Made by a program: the position numbers and the translations under genes. The notes under the pieces are model-generated. The model was not told the DNA's origin and made no database searches. It worked only from the letters and a program-made list of their open reading frames with translations. This document shows positions 1-20,725 of a stretch of 27,555 nt of DNA, piece by piece. Each line of letters begins with the position of its first letter. Position 1 is the stretch's first letter. This stretch comes from a virus: the IMG/VR virus record IMGVR_UViG_3300021961_000494, positions 1 to 27,555 of that record; one strand, given 5' to 3'.

Positions 1-67
1 GTGTCGGGCCACGCGTGAAGGGGGTGGGGGTCTAGGAGACTCCTTACAGGGGTATATCGGGCGTTTT

Positions 68-18366: not shown

Positions 18367-18801
18367 TTAAGCGGCCGGCAGGACCACCAGCACGTCAAAG
18401 GAGAAAGCCGTCGCCCAGGAGCGTTCGTCGATGCCCTCGTCCTCCGACCCGATCGTGACGTCATAGCAGGACGCGTCCCCGCTGGCCGTGAAGGCCGCCT
18501 TGATGCTGGTCAGGTCACGCATATTGCCGGACAGGGCGGCGCAGCGGGCACGGTGGTCGGCCAAGGTCGTGTCGTCGGCGTTGGAGAAAAGGGTGATGCG
18601 GACGGAGCAGGAATAGTTGCCTTCGCCTTCGGGGAGGTCGCCAGGGGCGCGGGCAGAGTCGCAGAGCACGACGGCCTTCGGCAGGGTCTGGGTCGTGGCG
18701 CTGTCCCCGGTTAGGAACTGCACGGAGGTCAGCCCAGTCTGGGTCGACAGGTAGGTCGCGACAGTGGACTCGACGATGTGCCGGATGCTCTTAGTGCCCA
18801 T
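18367..18801 (-). CDS. Putative tail terminator protein
   Basis: A 144-residue protein that begins MGTKSIRHIVESTVATYLSTQTG. The frame is open upstream, but that part runs into the ligase promoter and is proline-rich noise, so the ATG at 18801 is used. An N-terminal helix followed by alternating strands (SCSVRITLFSNADD, DVTIGSEDEGID) and a closing strand AFSFDVLVVLPAA matches the alpha/beta outline and size of lambda gpU-type tail terminators, which cap the tail tube. Position before the tube-like gene supports this. There is no diagnostic motif, so this is an inference. It begins a new minus-strand run after the ligase interruption. Confidence 0.55.
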   Translation of the reverse strand: MGTKSIRHIVESTVATYLSTQTGLTSVQFLTGDSATTQTLPKAVVLCDSARAPGDLPEGEGNYSCSVRITLFSNADDTTLADHRARCAALSGNMRDLTSIKAAFTASGDASCYDVTIGSEDEGIDERSWATAFSFDVLVVLPAA

Positions 18802-18832
18802 TTCCTTTGCCCTGATTGGTAGGGAAAGGGGC

Positions 18833-18861
18833 TTGACGGATGGGGGTGGGGGTGCTCTACT
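18833..18861 (+). promoter_or_regulatory. Sigma70-like promoter for the ligase gene
   Basis: TTGACG at 18833-18838 (5 of 6 to the -35 consensus), a 17-base spacer, and TCTACT at 18856-18861 (4 of 6 to the -10 consensus). Predicted transcription would begin near 18868, only about 8 bases before the ligase ATG, giving an almost leaderless mRNA. It lies in the 74-base gap upstream of the divergently transcribed tail gene. Confidence 0.5.
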
Positions 18862-18875
18862 TACCCCGCTCACCG

Positions 18876-19769
18876 ATGATCTGCCAACAGGACCAAGCCC
18901 TTGCCGACTTCTTCGCCATGTTCGAGAAGGCCGTGCCCCACATCCCTAAGCCCCGCCTCGTGAAGGCCAGAGGCACCGCCATGCTGGCCCGCCTCTACGA
19001 CGGCGAACTGCCGCCCTCCTACGTTTGCGAGCCTAAGGTAGACGGCCTCCGCGTCATCATCACCGCCGACATGGACAGCCGCCGCGTCTCCTTTGCCACG
19101 CGCAACGGCAACCAGATGCCCTCGCTCGACCATCTGGCTGGCGAGGTGCTGGACCTGCTTTCTGATCGTGCTGGGGTCTGGACGCTCGACGGCGAGGCCG
19201 TCTCCGGCAAGTCCTTCTTCACCTCTGTCGGCGACCTCCGCTCCGAAGCCCCCGCCGACGACGCCCGCATCTGGCTGTTCGACATTCCCTCCTGCGAAGG
19301 CGATTACAGCACCCGCCGTGCCTCTCTGGAGGATTTGTTCGCTCAGTCCTACCCTTCCTCTCTCCTGCTCATCCCGAGCGTCTCCTGCACCCCTGAAGAA
19401 GCCTTTGTACGCTTTACCGCCGAGGGCTTTGAGGGCGCTATGGTCAAGGACACGACCGCACCCTACCGCCACGGCATCCGCTCTAGGGCTTGGCTCAAGG
19501 TCAAGGACTGCGACACCACCGACGGCCAGATCGTGGACATCGTCGAAGGTTCGGGCAAGTGCGCTGGCATGGCTGGCCACATCGTCTTGCGCTGCGGTCG
19601 CCGCGACGTTAGCGTCGGCACGGGCATGGACGAGGCCACCCGCCGCGAACTCCTAGCTAATCGCTCTGAGCTCATTGGTAAGGTCGCCGAGGTAGACTTT
19701 CAGATGAAGACCCCGAAGGGTTCACTCCGTCACCCGGTGTTCGTCAGGGTGCGCGGGGATAAGGCTTAA
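18876..19769 (+). CDS. ATP-dependent DNA ligase (only plus-strand gene)
   Basis: Seals nicks in duplex DNA through a lysyl-AMP intermediate. With the ATG at 18876 the protein has 297 residues, the size of compact phage ligases (adenylation domain plus OB fold). Motifs: I EPKVDGLR with nucleophile K54, III LDGEAV (E107), IIIa WLFDIP (133-138), IV EGAMVKD (E186), V AWLKVKD (K208/K210), then an OB-like C-terminal part (GQIVDIVEGSGKCAG, EVDFQMKTPKGSLRHPVF). An earlier start at 18840 would overlap the promoter, so it is less likely. The gene is inserted on the opposite strand between neck and tail-terminator genes and has its own promoter, which marks it as a moron-like insertion. No Shine-Dalgarno sequence is visible. 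Confidence 0.93.
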   Translation: MICQQDQALADFFAMFEKAVPHIPKPRLVKARGTAMLARLYDGELPPSYVCEPKVDGLRVIITADMDSRRVSFATRNGNQMPSLDHLAGEVLDLLSDRAGVWTLDGEAVSGKSFFTSVGDLRSEAPADDARIWLFDIPSCEGDYSTRRASLEDLFAQSYPSSLLLIPSVSCTPEEAFVRFTAEGFEGAMVKDTTAPYRHGIRSRAWLKVKDCDTTDGQIVDIVEGSGKCAGMAGHIVLRCGRRDVSVGTGMDEATRRELLANRSELIGKVAEVDFQMKTPKGSLRHPVFVRVRGDKA

Positions 19770-20725
19770 CTCCTGCGGCCTGCCTTGATGCGCCTGATCG
19801 TGCGCTCGACGTATTGCTCCATGTCGGACTTCATCTGGCGGTCACGACTGCCAAGGGCCAAGGCCATCGTGTTGGCCTCGTCTGCGATGGCGTTCACGTT
19901 GCCCATCAGATTGCCAATGGTAATCATGTATTCCTTGGAGTTCTCGGCAACGCGGGAGTATCCGCCTGCCCCGGCATGGCGGGCGATGTAGGTCGCATTG
20001 CGGAGGTCGGCGCCGAACATGACCGGGCCATTCTTATTGGACGGCATAGGCAGAGTCATGAGCGCACGAAGCCAAGCAGACTTTGTCTTGCCGACGGCGA
20101 CCTGTCGCTCGCGGATATAGTCGTCGAGCTCTTTCTTGCTTTCGACCAGGAGTCGAGGTTCGCCTAGCTTCTGTCCTCGCTTCATGCGTCCGCCGAACTT
20201 GGCCTTGATGCGTTCATGGTGGGCACGCAGGTCGGTCGCATAGCTGAGGCCGTATTCGTTGACCTTGAGAGGGACGCGGTTCAGGTAGTTGCGAGCCTTT
20301 AGGAACGCCCGGTCATAGTTCGGGTCGTTCAGGATTTTGGTCATGATCGGCGAGATGCGAAGGGACTCTAGGCTGGAGCGTCGCACGACCTTGTCGAACA
20401 TGGCTCGGTTGTTGGTCTGGGTAGCGTGGGCGAGCGTGCGGAACACGATGGCCTTCTGGCTGGAGATGTTACGGTCGCCTACGGCCACGAACATCTTGCG
20501 GATGTCCCCGGCCACGGCGCCGTCGCCCGCCTGCCTTGCCTTGTCGGTAAGACCCTGACCGCCACCCTTGACCAAAGGCGGGGTAAAGCGGGCCATGTCC
20601 TCACAGATGAGTGCAGCTTGTTTTTTGGCTACGTCCTTCTCGGCCACGCCCAGCATTCTGGCGATGTCCTCGAGCGTCGTCTTAAACTCGGCGTAGGACT
20701 TCGGGACGATTTCGACCTTAACCAT
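19766..20725 (-). CDS. Putative neck/minor tail protein
   Basis: A 319-residue, basic, mainly helical protein. The N-terminus (VEIVPKSYAEFKTTLEDIARMLGV) and the sequence TPPLVKGGGQGL resemble gp10-type head-tail joining proteins, which often carry a P-x-x-T/G-x-L segment, but this protein is far longer than the usual 120-150 residues because of a C-terminal extension (about 160-319) with many Lys/Arg. The C-terminal NLMGNVNAIADEANTMALALGSRDRQ is helical. Its TAA overlaps the ligase TAA on the other strand (shared TTAA at 19766-19769), so the two genes converge tail to tail. Exact function is uncertain. Confidence 0.55.
   Translation of the reverse strand: MVKVEIVPKSYAEFKTTLEDIARMLGVAEKDVAKKQAALICEDMARFTPPLVKGGGQGLTDKARQAGDGAVAGDIRKMFVAVGDRNISSQKAIVFRTLAHATQTNNRAMFDKVVRRSSLESLRISPIMTKILNDPNYDRAFLKARNYLNRVPLKVNEYGLSYATDLRAHHERIKAKFGGRMKRGQKLGEPRLLVESKKELDDYIRERQVAVGKTKSAWLRALMTLPMPSNKNGPVMFGADLRNATYIARHAGAGGYSRVAENSKEYMITIGNLMGNVNAIADEANTMALALGSRDRQMKSDMEQYVERTIRRIKAGRRS

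Follow-up and report, generated by a model that had tools for sequence, protein, structure and literature searches.

An ATP-dependent DNA ligase gene at a fixed accessory site, head-on to the late operon, in a group of uncultured freshwater phages

In its classical form, a moron consists of a promoter, a gene, and a terminator, and the terminator does not belong to every definition. Phage ATP-dependent DNA ligases mostly belong with the functions of replication or nucleotide metabolism. Under a broader definition of the moron, foreign base composition is not required (PMC2629481). Here, we propose, with a probability of roughly 0.75, that the ligase gene of the phage sequence studied is a moron-type cassette, made up of a promoter and one gene, that occupies a fixed site head-on to a single-direction late operon. 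The cassette occurs in a group of tailed phages of roughly 30 kb whose hosts are probably Verrucomicrobiota (Opitutae). No description of this ligase arrangement was found in a literature search.

The window, meaning the whole stretch of DNA that was analyzed, is a virus record of 27,555 bases. Read from right to left, its minus strand encodes the terminase large subunit (GpA type), the portal, an S49 protease, and the major head protein, followed by head-tail and tail genes, a tail fibre, lysis genes, and then DNA-metabolism genes (ERF recombinase, PD-(D/E)XK nuclease, and DnaB-like helicase). The preliminary description regarded the ligase as the only plus-strand gene, antisense to the minus-strand structural genes and sharing the stop-codon bases TTAA (19766-19769) with the converging gene at 19766, and all three points were borne out. 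None of ten long plus-strand ORFs that lie antisense to other window genes matched a PHROG family. The ligase was also the only reversed gene in a 29.4-kb ligase-bearing relative, and those window genes that were found in two near-complete relatives without the ligase (29.5 kb) all lie on one strand. The neck and tail-terminator names given earlier to the two neighbors derive from gene order only, and neither neighbor matched any profile. The features of the locus are listed in Table 1.

Table 1. Features of the ligase locus, in window coordinates.
Feature	Position	Strand	Basis or remark
Tail-terminator-like protein, 144 aa (named from gene order only), flank	18367..18801	-	72-96% identity in ligase-bearing and ligase-less relatives
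Accessory cassette (leader, promoter, ligase)	18802..19769	.	Present in ligase-bearing, missing from ligase-less relatives
Leader of tail-terminator-like gene, purine-rich AAAGG near its ATG	18802..18824	-	Junction comparison
-35-like hexamer TTGACG	18833..18838	+	TTGAC invariant upstream in every unique relative
-10-like hexamer TCTACT, extended -10 TG at 18853-18854	18856..18861	+	Relatives, 17-nt spacing
Predicted 8-nt 5' leader without Shine-Dalgarno motif	18868..18875	+	Start site inferred
ATP-dependent DNA ligase, 297 aa, minimal type (nucleotidyltransferase + OB domain)	18876..19769	+	Pfam and PHROG matches
Head-tail region protein, 319 aa, no fold assigned, convergent flank	19766..20725	-	Highly variable allele

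The ligase ORF matched PF01068 (4.5e-16) and PF14743 (2.1e-11) in Pfam, both over the cut-off, and PHROG 114 "ATP-dependent DNA ligase" (1.6e-64); its PDB matches were 6ras/6rar, 8u6x, 6gdr, and 1p8l. Motif I (KxDG) with the catalytic lysine (K54, within CEPKVDGLR), motifs III-V, and the OB domain were all present, the further motifs being LDGEAV, EGFEGAMVK, and WLKVK, with LRHPVFVRVR at the C terminus. In an alignment of 20 relatives, K54, D56, G57, E107, E186, K191, K208, and K210 were invariant. The protein is thus a conserved ATP-dependent ligase with intact catalytic motifs, and nick sealing is its predicted activity. The median dN/dS across 56 distinct ligases was 0.18, indicating that purifying selection acts on the gene. 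Against the NCBIfam equivalogs for Lig E, Lig D, and Lig B-C, the best score was 76.7 bits versus a cut-off of 227.75; the ligase fell below every equivalog cut-off and therefore belongs to none of the named bacterial classes. An AlphaFold model built from the 20-relative alignment was poor (pLDDT 47). A longer ORF starting at 18840 was rejected: the ATG of relatives lies 35, 36, 43, or 44 nt from TTGAC (bimodal, 35-36 or 43-44 nt, among unique relatives), so that the 18840 start is out of frame there, the stretch upstream of 18876 is non-coding, and the gene starts at 18876.

All 80 IMG/VR relatives found via the ligase sequence carried the gene at the same point and on the opposite strand to the same two flanking genes, and a deeper alignment-based scan returned the same phage group only. 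Sampling via the flanking genes, in which some contigs appear twice, gave 116 empty loci and about 25 with the ligase. The gene is thus optional at this exact point, which supports the moron reading of the preliminary description, here without a recognizable terminator; a ligase co-linear with its neighbors was looked for and was found at none of the loci sampled by the flanking genes. The flank-to-flank distance was about 1922-1983 bp with the ligase (loci having both flanks) and 902-1006 bp without it. Only the 19766-type gene lies between the flanks of empty sites, and the sampled relatives showed no gene at the site other than the ligase. In the tail-terminator-like gene, ligase-less relatives reached identities of up to 99%. 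On a tree of this adjacent gene, ligase presence needed 27 changes by parsimony, at least 16 of them forced by well-supported branches; these counts, which do not distinguish gain from loss and come from one short gene in recombining phages, measure exchange at the site and not separate inventions. In one contig, L046/L172 (IMGVR_UViG_3300020044_006631), the head-tail region occurs twice, once with the ligase and once without it; this contig is probably a chimeric assembly and was excluded from the trees.

No other ATP- or NAD-dependent ligase was found in the records of the near-complete ligase-less relatives, so the ligase is dispensable for the phage and accessory, and the host ligase presumably suffices for those relatives. 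The earlier argument that nick sealing is essential, and the placement of the gene for that reason unexpected, is undercut by these close relatives without the gene or any other ligase. The ERF recombinase is kept in ligase-less relatives, and 15 records yielded no tyrosine integrase. A patchy presence in otherwise similar phages could also mean that the ligase serves in counter-defence or repair, mending nicks or breaks inflicted by the host and kept only where hosts have a nicking defence. A promoter of its own would fit the immediate expression that such a role calls for, but no defence partner or difference in host range is known, and we consider this explanation rather doubtful.

Comparison of the junctions helped to delimit the cassette. 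At empty sites, a short leader belonging to the following gene stands right next to the stop codon of the 19766-type gene. At occupied sites, the insert starts in or before the leader "ttcctttgcccNNtttggtaggg" and takes in "aaaggggcTTGACgg" together with the ligase. Its far boundary is the stop codon of the ligase, and this codon either overlaps the stop of the neighbor or lies directly against it. The 18802..18824 leader occurs in ligase-bearing loci and in a minority of empty ones, with "ggttatg" in its place in L230 and L154, and where the neighbor genes of paired loci are most alike (L160/L154, L073/L230, L079/L125, and L081/L214), it lies within the insert. A good Shine-Dalgarno motif supplied by the insert to the downstream gene was considered and dropped, as AAAGG is too near that ATG.

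The 19766-type gene itself takes part in the variation. One allele clade (60% level) holds most ligase-bearing loci (40 with the ligase, 9 without), and the other alleles occur both with and without it, suggesting that exchange can involve either the cassette by itself or the cassette together with the 19766-type gene. Much of the presence polymorphism could therefore be exchange of a two-gene block made up of the ligase and this gene. Among relatives (L002-L241), the 319-aa neighbor shows 30-96% identity and the adjacent genes about 85-95%, as if it were allele-swapped under diversifying pressure. In L004 and L005, the major head protein is 34% and the portal 39% identical to those of the window and the terminase and ligase-region proteins 84-98%, values indicating that the whole head module is exchanged.

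The junctions also bear on a scenario of repeated loss, in which an ancestral core gene of this group would have disappeared many times and the orientation of the ligase would be a relic and not the result of a moron insertion. The empty sites L094, L100, L106, and L181 keep the ligase-side leader of 22-24 nt, like the scar of a loss, and the ligase (GC 0.63, GC3 0.80) is close in composition to the neighbor genes, in keeping with an old phage gene. This match speaks for a residence in the phage that is not recent, and recently captured foreign DNA was rejected for the same reason. However, many empty sites have a quite different and shorter junction, most sampled relatives are without the ligase, and the nearest isolate, P8625, carries every gene on a single strand and lacks an annotated ligase, making repeated ancestral loss unlikely.

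The preliminary description proposed a good promoter, TTGACG/17/TCTACT, in front of the ligase. Both hexamers and the spacing are present and conserved, whereas "good" overstates a -10 that is weak by sigma-70 standards. A sigma-70 -10 normally needs an A at position 2, which this hexamer lacks, and a generic sigma-70 scan, which demands this base, scored no promoter at the ligase. The promoter call is based on conservation across relatives: the spacing is fixed at 17 nt and the spacer sequence varies, the -10-like hexamers are TTTGCT, CTTACT, TCTACT, and TTTAGT (YTTRCT-like), located 6-15 nt from the ATG, and the extended -10 TG occurs in 32 of 55 unique upstreams. Similarity to TATAAT averages 3.1 of 6 at spacing 17 and at most 1.9 elsewhere. 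Scanning both strands of the window gave a single occurrence of the full -35/17/-10 motif, and the TTGAC block lies inside the insert and is absent from empty sites, which argues for a promoter belonging to the ligase itself, as earlier proposed. No terminator-like hairpin was found at the ligase end, where the stops overlap or abut. That the block is not a promoter, with the ligase read through from a distant plus-strand promoter or hardly expressed and TTGAC acting as an operator or minus-strand signal, would accord with the weak -10 missed by the scan but is quite improbable, given that TTGAC occurs only alongside the ligase, at a fixed spacing from a second conserved hexamer across a variable spacer, that the TATAAT similarity peaks at 17 nt only, and that the other genes all lie on the opposite strand and leave no visible source of plus-strand read-through.

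With transcription starting at the predicted position, 9 of 59 unique relatives would have a leader of about 0-1 nt, the ATG standing where the RNA would begin; the ligase messages of some relatives are thus predicted to be leaderless, and that of the window to have a leader of 8 nt. The near-leaderless mRNA, earlier considered notable, loses weight, since most genes of the phage have no Shine-Dalgarno motif at a usable distance and some Verrucomicrobia are themselves Shine-Dalgarno-scarce (PMC10783764). Leaderlessness as a feature special to the ligase was rejected because the phage is Shine-Dalgarno-poor throughout. For most minus-strand genes of the window, translation seems to be largely Shine-Dalgarno-independent.

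The genome ends offer a possible substrate for the enzyme. An identical stretch of 11 bases, GTGTCGGGCCA, stands at both ends of two near-complete relatives and at the start of the window. Among 32 family contigs containing GTGTCGGGCCACGC, nine stop exactly there, and others hold the joined site ...CGTGGTGTCGGGCCACG..., whose form CGTGG-TGTCGGG-CCACG is palindromic. Contigs of the group repeatedly start precisely at GTGTCGGGCCACGC, and the near-complete ones finish with GTGTCGGGCCA; this observation covers the window (1-14), G001, G002, G005, L315, L323, L335, L352, L369, L378, L382, L383, and L390. The repeated termini probably represent a cos site with 11-nt cohesive ends; together with the GpA-type terminase, they are as expected for a cos-packaging phage. 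From this probable cos site, the left end of the window would be a true genome end, with ~2 kb missing at the right. Annealed cohesive ends leave nicks, a natural substrate for an early ligase. Ligase-less relatives carry the same cos-like ends, so any benefit of the ligase there would be only incremental.

On the moron-type reading, host RNA polymerase would transcribe the ligase from the -35/-10 elements near 18833-18861, independently of the minus-strand program and probably already at an early stage of infection; late in infection, minus-strand transcription from the opposite direction would lower its expression. The enzyme may then seal nicks in phage DNA, at the cohesive ends annealed after entry and also in products of the ERF/exonuclease recombination module, adding to the host ligase and not replacing it; the host enzyme alone would serve ligase-less relatives. 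A stronger version makes the ligase an entry gene, transcribed by host polymerase as the DNA enters, sealing the ends and early nicks, shut off by convergent transcription as a built-in timer, and read from a near-leaderless mRNA suited to Shine-Dalgarno-poor hosts; we regard it as a speculation with little chance of being correct.

A search of bacterial genomes gave one short contig only, binned as Opitutae, which is weak host evidence. A relative, L082 (CAIYEN010000245.1), is binned with an uncultured Opitutae genome, a weak hint that agrees with the terminase match to P8625. The locus documents a DNA-metabolism enzyme that behaves as a moron in about a hundred uncultured freshwater phage contigs, indicating that a phage-encoded ligase need not belong to the core replication machinery. 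Pairs of occupied and empty sites lend themselves to a clean natural comparison, both of what a phage gains from the additional ligase and of how a head-on gene is expressed in a one-way genome.

Compared with known systems, the window resembles Verrucomicrobia phage P8625 (NC_029047) in its GpA terminase (24% identity, the best bit score among the matches listed), in size, and in single-strand gene order, but P8625 has no annotated ligase or reversed gene. The ligase belongs to the same catalytic family as the phage ATP-dependent ligases of PHROG 114 (T7-, T4-, and SSU5-type); in contrast to these, it stands alone inside a structural operon, with at most 34% identity to the best isolated-phage matches. 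It shares the nucleotidyltransferase and OB core with Lig E, the Chlorella virus ligase, and Prochlorococcus Pmar-Lig, whereas its scores set it apart from Lig E and the other named bacterial classes. The "ant moron" of P22-like phages (PMC2629481) likewise has a fixed site in the late operon, varies between relatives, and is non-morphogenetic; it is independently expressed, a feature in which the ligase is likened to it from sequence alone. It differs in that the present cassette is a single ligase gene, always antisense and with no recognizable terminator. At our locus, an extra gene is present or absent at one site between conserved genes with flanks up to 99% identical, a conserved promoter-like block accompanies the opposite orientation, and neither a terminator of its own nor a foreign composition was seen. 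The cassette thus departs in part from the classical three-part form and, with its expression part predicted, falls within the broader definition of PMC2629481: it is an accessory ligase that behaves as a known kind of phage add-on gene, a moron.
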